6,190 nt of DNA from Candidatus Nanopelagicaceae bacterium (GTDB taxonomy: Bacteria; Actinomycetota; Actinomycetes; Nanopelagicales; Nanopelagicaceae), in the NCBI GenBank assembly GCA_947478965.1, contig CANJXW010000034.1:1-6190 (forward strand). Direction: 5' to 3'. Below are positions 918-6,190 of this stretch, in pieces (position 1 is the stretch's first letter; the number at the start of each line of letters is the position of its first letter). The position numbers and the translations under genes are program-made. The notes under the pieces are model-generated. The model worked only from the letters and a program-made list of their open reading frames with translations, was not told the origin of the DNA and did not search any database.

Positions 918-2402
918 TTACTTAACCGGACCAACAATTCTCTCTGCAGCAAGGCGACCAGAAATCAAAACCATCGGTACTCCGACTCCAGGCTGTGTTC
1001 CAGAACCAGCAAAGACTACATTTTCAAAACCAGCTGCAATATTGCGCGGTCTAAAGGGACCGGTCTGGAAGAAGGTATGTGCGCTTGCAAAAGGCGCTCC
1101 TTGTTCCATTCCCTGTGCTTGCCAATCAAGAGGGGTCGTGAGAACTTCTGTCTCGATCGCATCACCAAAACCTGTATATCCACGATCTTCAAGGGTCTGG
1201 ACCATCTGATCGCGATAAGGAGCAGCTTGTTTCTTCCAATCGATATCAGCAGTCAGATTGGGAGTTGGGTAGAGAACGTAGTAGCTCTGCTTTCCTGGGG
1301 GAGCAAGAGTTGGGTCATCATGTGTTGGGATCGTGACAAGAACAGATGGATCGGACATAAGTTGCTTCTTGGTGATGAGTTCGTCAAAGACGCCATCCCA
1401 TGATTCGCCGAAGTGAATATTGTGATGCGCAACGTGGTCATACTTCTTTGATGATCCAACGAGCAAAGTTGCACACGATGGCGAGTACTTAAGACGCTTG
1501 ACTGAAAGCGGAGTCTTTCCAAGAAGATCACGCCATACAACGGGCAGGTCTGGGTTCATCACAACAACGTCGCACTCAATCCGTTCGCCTGTATCGGTAA
1601 GAACAGCTTTAACGCGAGAGTTCTGAATATCTAACTTTGTGACCGTAGTGTTGTATTTAAATTCAACGCCGTGCTTTTGCGCAGCAGCTGCAAGTGCGCG
1701 AGGTACTGCGTGCATGCCACCCTTAGGGAAGAAGACTCCATTGACTGAGTCCATATAAGCAATGACGGCATAAATAGCAAGCGCCTGCTGTGGACTAACG
1801 CCCGCATACATCGCTTGGAATGAGTACACCTTCTGAAGGCGTGGGTCTTTCATAAATTGATTGACCTTGGGTGCAAGGCGTCTAAATCCACCGAGTGCGA
1901 TCAAGCGCGCAAGGTTTGGGGTTAAGAGGTTAAAAGGTGAATCGATATTGCGATCGATAAAGTCGTTCATTTCATATTTATATAACTTAGTTACAAACTC
2001 AACATATTTGCGATATCCGAGAGCTTCTTCGGCGCTGACGGTCTTGCGAATCTCTTCTTCCATCGCCTGGGTATTTGCATGTACATCAATCTGAGTTCCA
2101 TCTGCATAAAATGCTCGGTATAAAGGTGAAAGTGGCATGAGTTCTAGCCAATCTTTCAAATCTTCCCCAACGCAGTTAAATGCATCATTGATAAGTGATG
2201 GCATTGTGAGAACACTTGGCCCGGTATCAAAGGCGTAACCATCTTTATTGAGTAAACCATTGCGACCACCAGGAACGGATTCGCGCTCAACGACGGTGAC
2301 TTTGCGACCTGCGCCAGCTAAGCGAAGAGCAGTACTGAGACCTGCCAGACCTGCGCCAACAACTACAACGTGATCGGTGGGTCCCTTGATACGAGCTGGC
2401 AT
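918..2402 (-). CDS. crtI: Phytoene desaturase (CrtI type, FAD-dependent)
   Basis: A flavoprotein that introduces double bases of unsaturation into phytoene, in bacteria usually four steps to all-trans-lycopene, at the membrane surface. It has 494 residues, the normal CrtI length. The N-terminal Rossmann dinucleotide-binding motif is VVGAGLAGLS (residues 14-23), with an acidic strand end at E39 and GGR at 45-47. The substrate/FAD region FDTGPSVLTMP is at 58-68. The central segment around MDSVNGVFFPKGGM (217-230) is typical of CrtI. The C-terminal bacterial phytoene-dehydrogenase signature is FAGSGTQPGVGVPMVLISGR (464-483). The ATG start overlaps the crtE stop by one base (TAATG) and has a strong Shine-Dalgarno sequence. 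The stop is followed directly and in frame by the crtB GTG. The number of desaturation steps (three to neurosporene or four to lycopene) cannot be read from sequence. Confidence 0.97.
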   Translation of the reverse strand: MPARIKGPTDHVVVVGAGLAGLSTALRLAGAGRKVTVVERESVPGGRNGLLNKDGYAFDTGPSVLTMPSLINDAFNCVGEDLKDWLELMPLSPLYRAFYADGTQIDVHANTQAMEEEIRKTVSAEEALGYRKYVEFVTKLYKYEMNDFIDRNIDSPFNLLTPNLARLIALGGFRRLAPKVNQFMKDPRLQKVYSFQAMYAGVSPQQALAIYAVIAYMDSVNGVFFPKGGMHAVPRALAAAAQKHGVEFKYNTTVTKLDIQNSRVKAVLTDTGERIECDVVVMNPDLPVVWRDLLGKTPLSVKRLKYSPSCATLLVGSSKKYDHVAHHNIHFGESWDGVFDELITKKQLMSDPSVLVTIPTHDDPTLAPPGKQSYYVLYPTPNLTADIDWKKQAAPYRDQMVQTLEDRGYTGFGDAIETEVLTTPLDWQAQGMEQGAPFASAHTFFQTGPFRPRNIAAGFENVVFAGSGTQPGVGVPMVLISGRLAAERIVGPVK

Positions 2403-3487
2403 TAATGGCTCCTACGAATTGCGCTTGTGGCGAGTTCAATCAGAAGTTCTCGCGCCGAGGGTGCTATTTCATCAGAGTTTGCAGCTTCCAGCGCGCTAGA
2501 AAGGAGCCCATCTATGAGATCTTCGACATCTTTTACTGCCCCAGTTTCAATGATTGCGGCGCGCACATCTTCGACTTGCTTGGAGGTCAGATCTGGATCC
2601 CCGAGGCTAGATTCGATGATCGAACGCTGGTTGTGATTGGCTTTTTCTAGCGTCATTGCCATGAGAACAGTGCGCTTTCCTTCGCGCAGGTCATCTCCTG
2701 CAGGCTTGCCAGTAACGGCAGGATCGCCAAATATTCCAAGAGCATCATCGCGTAATTGAAAAGCTTCACCAAGAGGCAAACCATAGGAACTCAAGATGTA
2801 CATGAGATTTTTTCTCTCACTCGAATCTCTGTGCGCAAGAGCAAGGCCAAGATGGAGAGGTCGCTCAATTGTGTACTTTCCAGATTTGTAACGTGCAATA
2901 CGAAGTGAGCGATCAACGCTGGGTGTTTTTTCTCCCGATTCGCGAACATCGAGATATTGACCCGCCATAAGTTCGATACGCATCTCATCATGAACGGTGA
3001 GTGCAGAGAGGAGGGCATCGCTCGTGACACCCGATGTATGCAACATGTGATCAGACCACACAAGCGCAAGATCTCCGAGAAGAACAGCTGCTGCTTCTCC
3101 GAATTTTCCAGAGAGGCCAGCCATTGCTCCCTGTTGATGTAAGTTTTCAAAGTGTCGATGGATTGCAGGTTTTCCGCGGCGTGTATCAGAACCATCCATC
3201 AAATCATCATGAATAAGTGCGCAGGCTTGTAAAAGTTCAAGGCTTGTAAATGCACGGATATCTTCTTGCGTTGGCGTAAGCCCTGATGCGCAGAAACCTG
3301 CATATGCAAAGAGTGGACGAAGGCGTTTTCCGCCATCGAGAAGAAAGGATTCAAGCGCATCACATACAGGGATGAGCTCTGAACCAATTTCGCTCAGGTA
3401 TTCCCGTTGTAGCGTGAGGTATGAGGTGAGTTCGCTATGAACCTCTTTGCGAATGAGCGAGAGCGCGCCTGGTGCATCGTTAGTCAC
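2402..3487 (-). CDS. crtE: Geranylgeranyl diphosphate synthase (polyprenyl synthetase)
   Basis: A trans-isoprenyl diphosphate synthase that extends allylic diphosphates with isopentenyl diphosphate; beside crtI and crtB the product should be C20 geranylgeranyl diphosphate. From the GTG start (3485-3487) it is 361 residues. Motifs in order: GGKRLRP (52-58), first Asp-rich motif DDLMD (94-98) followed by RRG, a segment ending MAGQYLD (174-180), KSGKYT (201-206), second Asp-rich region FQLRDD (243-248) followed by GIFGD, and GDDLREGKRT (264-273). The third Asp of the second motif is Gly, which I recall as common in actinobacterial homologues, so activity is expected. An upstream in-frame ATG (3521-3523) would give 373 residues, but it would overlap metF, has a poorly placed Shine-Dalgarno match and lacks a -10 box. 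The GTG has TACCGT at -12 to -7, fitting a leaderless mRNA. It is the first gene of the crtE-crtI-crtB operon. Exact chain length (C15, C20 or C25) is inferred from context. Confidence 0.93.
   Translation of the reverse strand: MTNDAPGALSLIRKEVHSELTSYLTLQREYLSEIGSELIPVCDALESFLLDGGKRLRPLFAYAGFCASGLTPTQEDIRAFTSLELLQACALIHDDLMDGSDTRRGKPAIHRHFENLHQQGAMAGLSGKFGEAAAVLLGDLALVWSDHMLHTSGVTSDALLSALTVHDEMRIELMAGQYLDVRESGEKTPSVDRSLRIARYKSGKYTIERPLHLGLALAHRDSSERKNLMYILSSYGLPLGEAFQLRDDALGIFGDPAVTGKPAGDDLREGKRTVLMAMTLEKANHNQRSIIESSLGDPDLTSKQVEDVRAAIIETGAVKDVEDLIDGLLSSALEAANSDEIAPSARELLIELATSAIRRSH
2409..2413 (-). promoter_or_regulatory. Shine-Dalgarno sequence of crtI
   Basis: AGGAG on the minus strand, six bases before the crtI ATG and inside the last codons of crtE. 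The good match and spacing confirm the crtI start and suggest efficient initiation at the TAATG junction, by re-initiation or de novo. This contrasts with crtB, which has no comparable site. Confidence 0.8.
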
Positions 3488-3493
3488 GGCGCA

Positions 3494-3499
3494 ACGGTA
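3494..3499 (-). promoter_or_regulatory. Predicted -10 element for crtE-crtI-crtB (leaderless)
   Basis: TACCGT on the minus strand matches the actinobacterial TANNNT -10 consensus and lies exactly at -12 to -7 from the crtE GTG, so transcription would start at the first base of the start codon. No convincing -35 hexamer is visible 16-18 bases upstream (TGCGCA is the nearest). The element shares its TA dinucleotide with the metF -10 element on the other strand. Predicted from pattern and spacing only. Confidence 0.6.
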
Positions 3500-3503
3500 C
3501 CCT
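3498..3503 (+). promoter_or_regulatory. Predicted -10 element for metF operon (leaderless)
   Basis: TACCCT on the plus strand matches TANNNT and lies exactly at -12 to -7 from the GTG at 3510, again placing the transcription start on the start codon. No clear -35 box is seen. It overlaps the divergent crtE -10 element at the central TA (3498-3499) of a GGTACC palindrome, so only one polymerase could open this site at a time. Confidence 0.6.
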
Positions 3504-3509
3504 GAGCGC

Positions 3510-4388
3510 GTGGAGATGCGCATACCTATCGAGGGCGAAGTTACGTACTCCTTTGAATTCTTCCCTCCGAAGGATATTGAGGGTGAAGATCGTCTCTGGA
3601 GCGCAATGGGCGCCCTGGAGGAAATTTCCCCAGACTTTATTTCAGTGACCTATGGCGCAGGTGGAAGTACGCGAGATCGCACTATTCGGATTACATCTGA
3701 GATAACTGCGCGCACAGGAATCCCCACTGTTGCACACCTAACGTGTGTTGGCTCCACCCGCGATGAACTCCTTGAGATATTAACTCGCTACAAAGATGCA
3801 GGAATTCACACCATCCTTGCTCTTCGTGGAGATCCTGCAGGAGGTCCTCGTGCTACCTGGGTCACAGCGCCACAAGGACTCAATCACGCCGATGAACTCG
3901 TCTCACTCGCTGCAGATTTTGGTGGATTTAAAATTGGCGTCGCAGCATTTCCTGATGGCCACCCTGCATCGGATGGAAACTTTGAGAAAGATATTGAAGT
4001 TCTCCTTCGCAAAGAAGAGCGCGGGGCAACTTTTGCCACAACTCAATTCTTCTTCGATGTTGATAAGTGGAAAGTACTAACTGACCGCCTGGCTGCAAAG
4101 GGATCGAACCTTCCGATTATCGCTGGCATTTTGCCGGTGACAAGTGTTCACCAGCTCACGCGTATGGCCGAACTCAGCGGAACGCCAATACCTGTTGCGA
4201 TATCAGAGGCATTTGCAAAGGTCGAATCTAACCCTGATGATGTTCGAAAGCTTGGCGTGGAGATCGCAACCAAGCTCTGCGAAGATCTTCTCGAGGCTGG
4301 CGCACCTGGACTCCATTTTTATACAATGAATACATCTACTGCAACACGAGAAATTTTCGCGCAGATTAAAGATAAGAGGAGACGATGA
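3510..4388 (+). CDS. metF: Methylenetetrahydrofolate reductase (MetF family)
   Basis: Expected to reduce 5,10-methylene-tetrahydrofolate to 5-methyl-tetrahydrofolate, the methyl donor for methionine synthesis, as a cytosolic TIM-barrel enzyme. From the GTG start it is 292 residues, the usual bacterial MetF size. Landmarks: SFEFFPPK (14-21), with E16 at the position of the catalytic Glu; TYGAGGSTRDRT (47-58); HLTC (76-79); LRGDP (105-109), with the Asp thought to interact with flavin; AFPDGHP (146-152); TQFFFD (178-183); GILP (206-209); and GLHFYTMN (267-274). An ATG at 3516 is an alternative start, but its GGAG touches the codon; an ATG at 3447 would run through the crtE start. The GTG has a -10 box at leaderless spacing. 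Some mycobacterial homologues beside a polyprenyl synthase are described as flavin-independent, so cofactor use is uncertain. Translationally coupled (ATGA) to the next gene. Confidence 0.93.
   Translation: MEMRIPIEGEVTYSFEFFPPKDIEGEDRLWSAMGALEEISPDFISVTYGAGGSTRDRTIRITSEITARTGIPTVAHLTCVGSTRDELLEILTRYKDAGIHTILALRGDPAGGPRATWVTAPQGLNHADELVSLAADFGGFKIGVAAFPDGHPASDGNFEKDIEVLLRKEERGATFATTQFFFDVDKWKVLTDRLAAKGSNLPIIAGILPVTSVHQLTRMAELSGTPIPVAISEAFAKVESNPDDVRKLGVEIATKLCEDLLEAGAPGLHFYTMNTSTATREIFAQIKDKRRR
4376..4381 (+). promoter_or_regulatory. Shine-Dalgarno sequence of the CDP-alcohol phosphotransferase gene
   Basis: GAGGAG inside the last codons of metF, three bases before the ATG at 4385. The purine-rich run around it is a strong match to the 16S rRNA tail and fixes the start at the ATGA overlap, supporting a two-gene operon with coupled translation. 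Confidence 0.75.
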
Positions 4389-5005
4389 AGAGAGAAGATT
4401 TCTTTTCCAAATGGAGCGCCCTTCACGGTGGAGCCCAGATCTCTGGAATCGTAAAAGCATGGCTTTCGATTTCTTACCGGTGTGCACGAATATCCTCAGC
4501 GCTGCATATCTCAGCGAACTTTTTAACCCTGCTTGGTGTTCTTTTCGCAATCGCCATGGTTGCAAGCCCGCTCTCGTTGTTGTGTATTCCTCTCCTAGTT
4601 CTCTCGCTCTTTTCTGATGGAATTGATGGAAGCGTTGCGATGTTTCAAGGGCGCGAGAGCGCTTGGGGAGCGATATTAGATTCTGTAGCAGATCGCATTA
4701 CCGAGGCTCTCTGGCTATTTATCGCCTATAAGGTAGGTGTTCCAGCGTGGATCGCTATAACGCTCTGGCTGATCGCATCGACTCAGGAATATATGCGCGC
4801 TCGAATCGCATCACTTGGATTTTCAGATATTGGCGTTGTGACCCCTGCAGAGCGGCCAATGCGTGCAAGTTTGCTCTTTATTCTCTTAGTTAGTTACCAC
4901 CTAGATTTCAGCTCCGCAGTGTTTCTCTCATCTGCATTTCTTCTTCTGCAAAGTTATAGCGCTTACCTAGTCGCACGAAGTGCTTATCGCGCGCTATCTG
5001 CTTAA
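4385..5005 (+). CDS. CDP-alcohol phosphatidyltransferase family membrane protein
   Basis: A 206-residue integral membrane protein of the CDP-alcohol phosphotransferase superfamily, which transfers a substituted phosphate from a CDP-linked donor (usually CDP-diacylglycerol) to an alcohol acceptor. The catalytic motif is present: D78, D81-G82, A85, G95, D99 and D103 match D-x2-D-G-x2-A-[R]-x8-G-x3-D-x3-D with correct spacing. The usual Arg after the Ala is Met86. About six hydrophobic segments are visible (roughly 44-60, 62-77, 105-117, 119-133, 160-172 and 175-192). Two basic patches, QEYMRAR (134-140) and AERPMR (155-160), could bind the acceptor headgroup. The acceptor (glycerol phosphate, inositol phosphate or other) cannot be told; I do not assign pgsA or pis. 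It starts within the metF stop (ATGA) and ends tail to tail on the next gene with a four-base overlap. Confidence 0.88.
   Translation: MKREDFFSKWSALHGGAQISGIVKAWLSISYRCARISSALHISANFLTLLGVLFAIAMVASPLSLLCIPLLVLSLFSDGIDGSVAMFQGRESAWGAILDSVADRITEALWLFIAYKVGVPAWIAITLWLIASTQEYMRARIASLGFSDIGVVTPAERPMRASLLFILLVSYHLDFSSAVFLSSAFLLLQSYSAYLVARSAYRALSA
5002..5005. other. Shared palindromic stop TTAA of two convergent genes
   Basis: TTAA reads TAA on both strands: bases 5003-5005 end the plus-strand phosphotransferase gene and bases 5004-5002 end the minus-strand oxidoreductase gene. The two genes therefore overlap by four bases with no spacer, and no hairpin plus T-run terminator is visible on either side. 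Confidence 0.9.
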
Positions 5006-6190
5006 TGAACTTCTTTCTTATTTAACACGGCAAGGGTAACCATCTCGGCGCTCAAACCAACAAGAGGTAAGCCGCCACCGGGATGAGCTGAACCTCCAAC
5101 ACAGAATAAACCTTTCAGAGGAGATCTATTCTTCGCACGCAAAAATGCAGAACGCGCACCATTGCTTGACGTTCCATAGATCGAACCACCTGGCGCCATG
5201 ACAGTTCGCTCAAGATCAGCAGGTGTTCTTATTTCAAGTACTTCAAGGCGGGAGCGGATATCAATTCCTTGGGATTCGATCTGATCGATAATTTTCGCGG
5301 CATAGAGTCGATTAAATTCAGGATCGCTCCAGTTGTACCCATCGACCCCTGTTGCGTCATGTCGTGGGGCGTTGACGAGAACGAACCACGCTTCGTCACC
5401 TTCTGATTTCACCATTGTTGCATCGCGTGGTGCGCAGATATAGATCGTTGGATTTTCTACAGGTACTTTTCTATCAAAGATTGCATCGAATTCAGCATCG
5501 TAATCTTGCGGAAAGAGAATTGTGTGGTGCGACAGAGGCGTTGCATCTTTATCAGCGCGAAGCCCAAGGAGAAGTGAGAAGCCCGCAAGAGATGGTTCTG
5601 ATTTATTAATCGCTCTTCGCGTTGCGCGAAGTCTTGGAACCCTTCCCTTGATGAGTGAGTTATAGACAAGACCCGCATCGGCATTTGCAACGATGACATC
5701 GCATGGAAGGCAATCTCCAGAATGCGTGATGACTCCGGTGACTCTCGTCTTATCGTGGGTTATCTCTGAGATCTTGTTTTCGAATTCAAATTTCACACCA
5801 AGATCCAGACAGCGTTGATAGACAGCATCTGCCAAACGGCCTACGCCACCTGTGATATGCCAGGCTCCAAAGGCTTCTTCGACAAAGGCGATAGAGGCAA
5901 GAACGGCAGGTGCAACCCGAGGATCTGATCCGCTATATGTTGCATAACGATCAAGAATCATCCGTAACTGTGGATTGGGAAGGTTGAGATCGCGCAGAGA
6001 TTTCCATGGCGCAATAACGCGTAGATCACGAAGTAGCGTAGGTCGCTTCAGGAGCGAGAGTGGAGACTTCAGTTCCGATTCTATAAAGGGCGCTCTGGAA
6101 ACATCCCACATAGCTTCGGCAGTTCTCATGACCGAATCCCATTCGAGCGATGCTTCTTTACCCAGCACCTTTTCAATGGATGCGAGAGTC
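5002..6190 (-). CDS. Second CrtI/CrtD-family carotenoid oxidoreductase, N-terminus cut by window edge
   Basis: A FAD-dependent phytoene-desaturase-like flavoprotein, of which 395 C-terminal residues are visible. The frame stays open to the last base; a GTG at 6168 is internal, because the Rossmann GxGxxG domain and about the first 100 residues are missing. Visible family marks (numbered from the window edge): MWDVSRAPF (27-35), GAWHITGGVGRLADAV (108-123), LVNAPRH in the middle of the substrate domain, and the C-terminal FAD signature FCVGGSAHPGGGLPLVGLSAE (starting near 362). That ending differs from the GTQPGVGVPMVL ending of crtI here and is nearer CrtD-type enzymes (hydroxycarotenoid 3,4-desaturases), so a later step on lycopene or a derivative is plausible. 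Other options are a CrtO-like ketolase or an unrelated amine oxidase of the superfamily. It converges on the metF operon, so its promoter lies outside the window. Confidence 0.85.
   Translation of the reverse strand, partial: TLASIEKVLGKEASLEWDSVMRTAEAMWDVSRAPFIESELKSPLSLLKRPTLLRDLRVIAPWKSLRDLNLPNPQLRMILDRYATYSGSDPRVAPAVLASIAFVEEAFGAWHITGGVGRLADAVYQRCLDLGVKFEFENKISEITHDKTRVTGVITHSGDCLPCDVIVANADAGLVYNSLIKGRVPRLRATRRAINKSEPSLAGFSLLLGLRADKDATPLSHHTILFPQDYDAEFDAIFDRKVPVENPTIYICAPRDATMVKSEGDEAWFVLVNAPRHDATGVDGYNWSDPEFNRLYAAKIIDQIESQGIDIRSRLEVLEIRTPADLERTVMAPGGSIYGTSSNGARSAFLRAKNRSPLKGLFCVGGSAHPGGGLPLVGLSAEMVTLAVLNKKEVH

Follow-up and report, generated by a model that had tools for sequence, protein, structure and literature searches.

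The window analysed here, a stretch of 6,190 nucleotides in its full length, comes from a Candidatus Nanopelagicaceae bacterium. The source genome is incomplete (52% complete by estimate). Among the named assemblies, IMCC26103 and Planktophila/Nanopelagicaceae, freshwater acI actinobacteria, are some of its closest relatives. Two operons in the window point away from each other across 22 bp of DNA. The plus-strand operon is led by metF (3510 to 4388), which encodes methylenetetrahydrofolate reductase (PF02219; TIGR00676 above cut-off), and its second gene (4385 to 5005) encodes a CDP-alcohol phosphatidyltransferase (PF01066; NCBIfam matches below cut-off). The first gene of the minus-strand operon encodes a polyprenyl diphosphate synthase of crtE/idsA type (2402 to 3487; PF00348), and a crtI-type phytoene desaturase (918 to 2402; TIGR02734 above cut-off) and a crtB-type squalene/phytoene synthase (12 to 917; PF00494) are encoded on the same strand. 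The synthase is likely a crtE product, a name that rests on family and neighbourhood, all its NCBIfam matches being below cut-off. A second desaturase gene, of CrtI/CrtD type and below curated cut-offs, lies at 5002 to 6189 on the minus strand, convergent with the phosphatidyltransferase gene, and runs past the end of the window. By eye, AGGAG is present upstream of the phosphatidyltransferase gene and of crtI; no Shine-Dalgarno-type sequence was seen upstream of metF and crtE, and crtB (GTG at 917) likewise has no AGGAG-type sequence upstream.

The two operons meet at a hinge of 28 bases (3485 to 3512, both strands), a predicted shared promoter bounded by the two start codons, whose coordinates in an earlier note on this DNA prove right to the base on direct reading. 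A GGTACC palindrome occupies 3496 to 3501. The TA at 3498 to 3499 would be T-12/A-11 of the plus-strand promoter, base-paired to A-11/T-12 of the minus-strand promoter. On the plus strand, the TA opens TACCCT (3498 to 3503), the predicted -10 element of metF; on the minus strand, it opens TACCGT (3494 to 3499), the predicted -10 element of crtE. Each is preceded by an SRN-type extension of the -10 element, CGG (3495 to 3497) on the metF side and GGG (3502 to 3500) on the crtE side. The GTG on either side, 3510 to 3512 for metF (+) and 3485 to 3487 for crtE (-), has its first base 12 nt from the T that opens the TANNNT of that side. The non-coding DNA between the two start codons is confined to 3488 to 3509. 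The exact pattern of this 12/12 arrangement, CAY-N6-A-N3-TA-N3-T-N6-RTG, has one match in the window, at 3485, against 0.025 expected under an order-1 Markov model of the same length, for a pattern composed after the site had been seen.

It is highly probable, judging from sequence and its comparison among relatives, that 3485 to 3512 is a single bidirectional promoter, its two directions sharing a TA, and that both of its mRNAs are leaderless. In mechanistic terms, a single promoter read by the housekeeping sigma factor would present TACCCT on one strand and TACCGT on the other, both built on the single TA. Depending on the orientation in which RNA polymerase binds, transcription would begin at G3510 for metF or at G3487 for crtE, so that the GTG start codon would form the very 5' end of each mRNA. 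The start sites, the leaderless translation and the steric exclusion of two polymerases at once are what we infer in this scheme. The predicted divergent starts are 23 bp apart, which is inside the 7–25 bp by which bidirectional promoters are defined, and the opposite -10 elements overlap, as they do in such promoters, by having the TA in common. The geometry of the 18-bp class (TANNNTA, with reciprocal pairing of -11A and -7T) is absent from the metF/crtE hinge, where the offset is -1 and not -6. On both sides TANNNT stands about 12 bp before the start codon, as is characteristic of leaderless, TA-led genes.

PMC3160421 describes leaderless genes as recognizable by a TANNNT about 12 bp upstream of the start, and puts such TA-led genes at >20% of genes in Actinobacteria. 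The signature was sought in six stretches from five relatives (2.0 Mb, 1803 called genes), in which a simple home-made caller allowed several candidate starts per gene. Of the candidate ATG/GTG starts, 8.6–13.9% have TANNNT exactly 12 nt upstream, and the distribution shows shoulders at 13 and 14 nt. Internal ATG/GTG codons have it at the 12-nt distance in 0.6% (G228) and 0.3% (G135) of cases in the two of the six stretches on which the control was run. In the source genome itself (60 kb plus the window) the figures are 13 of 74 starts against 1 of 442, two of the 13 being the junction's own starts. As a result, the 12-nt spacing noticed on both sides of the hinge can be recognized as the modal leaderless spacing of the lineage, in agreement with the description of Actinobacteria in PMC3160421. 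Base frequencies upstream of 280 leaderless-type starts contain no -35 signal; in M. tuberculosis, as far as the text of PMC3898074 at hand describes it, SRN often precedes the -10 element and there is no -35 motif. An E. coli-like promoter with a -35 element was also considered for the junction and rejected, since the only promoter-like site that a simple scan found in 3200 to 3800 is not at the junction.

The comparison within the family is based on 86 species loci from whole-genome searches and fetches (L001–L030, L044–L052, L132–L178). The 30 genomes from other genera among them were hand-picked, 1–4 per genus, from a search in which 236 of 296 genomes of the order yielded metF; the sample does not include genus g52. 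Thirteen loci of a separate search stand outside the 86, several being duplicate genomes and one (L042) a gammaproteobacterial match. In 82 of the 86, crtE lies divergent beside metF, the four left out being L020 (contig end) and L174, L177 and L178 (no crtE beside metF). These 82 loci keep the layout in 14 of the 16 genera sampled, and in the loci read from the remaining two, g40 and g42, no crtE lies beside metF.

The shared-TA core, ANNNTANNNT, is present in all 82 paired loci, its columns A(-4), TA and T(+5) being imposed by the search pattern. The G two bases before the TA, which the pattern does not impose, is likewise invariant (82/82). A weighted profile, which counts these mutually dependent relatives as 36 effective sequences, carries 1.25–2.00 bits at positions -2 to 5 around the TA and drops to 0.02–0.13 bit at 24–31 bp on the metF side. 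An in-frame crtE start stands at 12 nt in 78 loci and at 13 in four (L022, L025, L165, L167). On the metF side, 79 of the 82 have an in-frame start, at 12 nt in 54, 13 in eight, 14 in 15 and 15 in two. The remaining three (L149, L150, L152) have no metF start at 12–15 nt, and all belong to genus g47, which contributes four of the 82 loci. All three retain the crtE half of the hinge, and in L149 an AAAGGAG-like sequence before a later ATG suggests a change from leaderless to leadered. Of the family loci added later and left uncounted, L339, L343 and L345 carry the hinge; L340 (g47) and L344 (g46) have the crtE side at 12 and no metF start at 12–14.

In the source's own genus, 52 of 55 junctions have starts at 12/12 (crtE/metF), two at 13/12 and one at 12/13. 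Since the metF start shifts to 13–15 nt outside this genus and is missing from those positions in the three g47 loci, the exact 12/12 symmetry should be read as a trait of that genus. The alignment that the earlier note had proposed as a check gave the expected picture: the remaining bases drift around a TA, two T positions and two start codons that are retained, the TA and T columns being fixed by the search. The note's central claim, that two leaderless GTG mRNAs arise from a single bidirectional promoter built on a common TA, passed the sequence tests run, whereas the exact 12/12 spacing did not hold beyond the own genus. Sequence and comparison show a TA common to the two strands, a T(-7) on either side, spacings of 12 nt, the conservation of these features, and the leaderless signature in source and related genomes.

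The same two gene families also stand head to head outside the source's family. A divergent metF/idsA-type pair occurs in 23 of 31 class-level loci and in 29 of 30 loci of family f26, the exception (L310) having no crtE beside metF. At class level, TANNNT lies 12–14 nt before a candidate metF start in 24 of the 31 loci and before crtE in 16 of the 23 with divergent crtE. Fifteen of these loci carry both signals, 14 with separate promoters at offsets of 15–339 and one fused at -1 (L064). In f26, both signals are present in all 29 paired loci, and the promoters are fused at exactly -1 in seven and separate, at 10–88, in 22. A tree of MetF+CrtE from f26 requires at least three changes between fused and separate, the direction of change not being inferred. 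Five of the fused loci form a well-supported clade; fused L312 stands beside a well-supported sister, L326 (offset 20), and fused L323 sits at an open fork. Most of the actinobacterial loci read outside the source's family that have both signals thus carry two separate leaderless-type promoters, and fusion is found in the source's family and repeatedly in f26.

Fusion is also found at other divergent genes of the family. The sampled stretches contain 266 divergent pairs, 80 of them with candidate starts 12–45 nt apart. In ten of the 80, TANNNT elements at 12–14 nt on both sides share a TA (offset -1), compared with 0.21 expected from mononucleotide shuffles, although three of the ten are metF/crtE pairs in stretches placed to include them; none of the other offsets from -8 to 15 exceeds three pairs. 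The seven further cases are SRAP/aroA, kynureninase-like/ABC ATPase, DUF2867/NmrA-type with a pyridine-nucleotide oxidoreductase (twice, in G228 and G167), glgC/glgA, FabG-like reductase/unnamed and MFS-like/unnamed. Inspection by eye is the source of the MFS label, of the unnamed partners and of the oxidoreductase assignment in G228, and the MFS-like case is sensitive to which of the candidate starts is chosen. Leaderless-type signals stand on both sides, within 150 bp, in 54 pairs, of which ten are at -1 and eight are spread over 0 to 9. Therefore, the shared TA is a peak and not the only close arrangement. The idea of a forbidden distance between fused and separate promoters was rejected on the same grounds: none of the 29 f26 pairs lies at offsets 0–9, but those 8 of the 54 own-family pairs do.

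Several of these pairs deserve a description of their own. The functionally linked genes glgC and glgA are opposed over a shared-TA hinge at L279:3230-5664 (G287), where the glgA side would use a TTG start. The NmrA/DUF2867-type and oxidoreductase hinge occurs in two genera (L215:17961-19466 in G228 and L255:14302-17040 in G167) and is possibly a second long-lived hinge. A crp-like/nth pair at L227:545-1944 (G228) is the sole case of the 18-bp geometry (TANNNTA), with leaderless-type spacing on both sides.

It could be argued that the GGTACC palindrome has a function other than that of a promoter. It would then be an operator for a regulator, and the two genes would start at ATG codons with leaders, from promoters elsewhere. 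The exact hexamer is present in 62 of the 82 junctions, and GGAG directly precedes ATG 3516, the candidate start of metF. However, that GGAG abuts the ATG without a spacer, and ATG 3523, the candidate start of crtE, is inside metF. The ATGs are also poorly conserved: within the genus, the counterpart of 3516 (metF codon 3) is found in only 27 of 55 junctions and that of 3523 (36 nt upstream of the crtE start) in only 17, whereas starts at 12 or 13 on both sides are found in 55 of 55. At the GTG positions the codon may vary, with 51 GTG and 28 ATG for metF in 79 loci, and 78 GTG and four ATG for crtE in 82. The cultured relative of record CP015604 (L032), for instance, shares the hinge but has ATG as its metF start. 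The palindrome is not conserved beyond the promoter positions: in the 20 junctions without exact GGTACC, it is altered and the TA and both T positions, which the search required, are kept. On this ground the operator was rejected, and we consider it very improbable. The hexamer probably has another source. SRN precedes the plus -10 element in 71 of the 82 junctions, the minus one in 80 and both in 69, compared with 103 of 280 single leaderless-type starts (one strand) and 22.6% of all TANNNT in the sampled stretches. On a shared TA, the SRN of each strand is the complement of the -10 to -8 positions of the partner strand. Two good half-promoters placed back to back therefore yield GGTACC, and counts on related sequences indicate that the palindrome probably arose in this way.

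It could also be that only the crtE promoter is real and conserved. The TANNNT at the right distance from metF would then simply result from the palindrome, and metF would be transcribed from further upstream, within crtE. The crtE side is indeed the stricter of the two (12 or 13 nt in 82/82, against 12–15 in 79 for metF). Sixteen loci, from partly incomplete genomes, have crtE and no metF beside it (L089 and L127, which end before the junction, are not counted). The crtE half is intact in all 16, with its start at 12, and the crtE promoter is therefore independent of metF. On the plus side, the GTG at position 12 survives in four (L112, L118, L119, L121). The plus T(-7) persists in 14 and has been lost in two (L112, L117), so that metF is not needed to explain why it is conserved; decay of the plus half in 2 of 16 argues weakly for separate selection on it. 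In L122–L126 the former metF GTG reads GTT and the plus -10 element is still present. Against a promoter for crtE alone, however, the metF start remains at 12 or 13 in all 55 same-genus junctions with GTG and ATG swapping in place, and class-level metF genes mostly have a TANNNT of their own where the two promoters are mostly apart. Moreover, five metF-less loci (L108, L110, L114–L116) keep the plus -10 element before a gene that, by eye, resembles the operon's second gene and is preceded by AGAAAGG. A promoter serving crtE only is accordingly a most unlikely reading, and the bidirectional promoter is retained.

A different question is why the fusion persists. Polymerases cannot bind a bidirectional promoter in both orientations simultaneously, and at five E. 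coli bidirectional promoters basal activity was too low for competition, which appeared once one side was activated, as reported in PMC12825309. The earlier note had proposed that the two operons are expressed in a mutually exclusive manner; this was dropped as unsupported, because the basal activity in E. coli speaks against it. At low activity the two operons would instead be expected to run independently, with competition setting in only when either direction is strongly activated. One explanation shares the whole mechanism of the bidirectional leaderless promoter and differs only on this question: the fusion would be neutral compaction in small genomes, without regulatory meaning, and the two directions would be independent. 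It is consistent with the 91–92% of the sampled genomes covered by called genes and with the lack of basal competition in E. coli. On the other hand, the fusion also occurs in f26, whose genomes are mostly 2–5 Mb, and another fused pair, glgC/glgA, is functionally linked. On balance we give neutral compaction a slightly better than even chance. A more speculative possibility, offered tentatively and rated well below it, is that double-leaderless hinges are a selected end state. Back-to-back leaderless promoters would slide together and lock on one TA, two base pairs would set both transcripts and start codons, and polymerase competition would couple the one-carbon/phospholipid operon with the isoprenoid/carotenoid operon.

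If the bidirectional leaderless reading is true, the hinge is a very small control element, with two promoters, two transcription starts and spacing-set start codons in 22 bp of non-coding DNA. The fused, separate and one-partner-lost versions in related bacteria form a natural series for the origin of bidirectional promoters. This series bears on coupling versus mere compactness, and on how leaderless starts constrain gene spacing. There is also a practical consequence for annotation: in many genomes of the family, gene callers that favour ATG would be likely to give metF or crtE a wrong start.

Parts of this architecture have been described before. E. coli bidirectional promoters have starts 7–25 bp apart by definition, 18 bp being the commonest distance and both 10 and 23 bp being frequent (Warman et al. 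2026, PMC12825309), so a distance of 23 bp is already known there. In M. tuberculosis, closely juxtaposed divergent promoters are common, and the adjacent divergent genes prpD (Rv1130) and Rv1129c have both transcripts mapped as leaderless (PMC3898074); divergent leaderless pairs are thus known as well. The metF/crtE pair, predicted to be leaderless both ways, resembles this pair as described, and the account in PMC3898074 gives no shared -10 element or spacing for it. A bacterial promoter that is both bidirectional and leaderless on both sides was not found in the open-licence literature searched, and the available text of PMC6640164 (archaeal) and PMC8577284 describes none. Like the bidirectional promoters of E. 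coli (PMC12825309) and Salmonella (PMC10268837), the hinge has overlapping -10 elements on opposite strands. In contrast to those promoters as described, both predicted mRNAs are leaderless, so that promoter spacing also fixes start-codon spacing, there is no -35 signal, and one hinge is conserved through a bacterial family; its shared element is T-12/A-11 and not the -11A/-7T pairing of the 18-bp class. The hinge resembles the leaderless TA-led genes of Actinobacteria (PMC3160421, PMC3898074) in having TANNNT about 12 bp before the start codon, although those accounts describe one promoter per gene and here two such promoters have a common TA. Finally, it contains the same gene families, head to head, as the metF/idsA-type pair of Actinomycetes, but in most of those pairs the -10 elements are separate (14/15 at class level, 22/29 in f26), whereas here they are fused on one TA. 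Within the literature searched, the novelty lies in bringing these features together: two predicted leaderless sides rest on a single TA, and this arrangement is retained across one family and arrived at again in a second.
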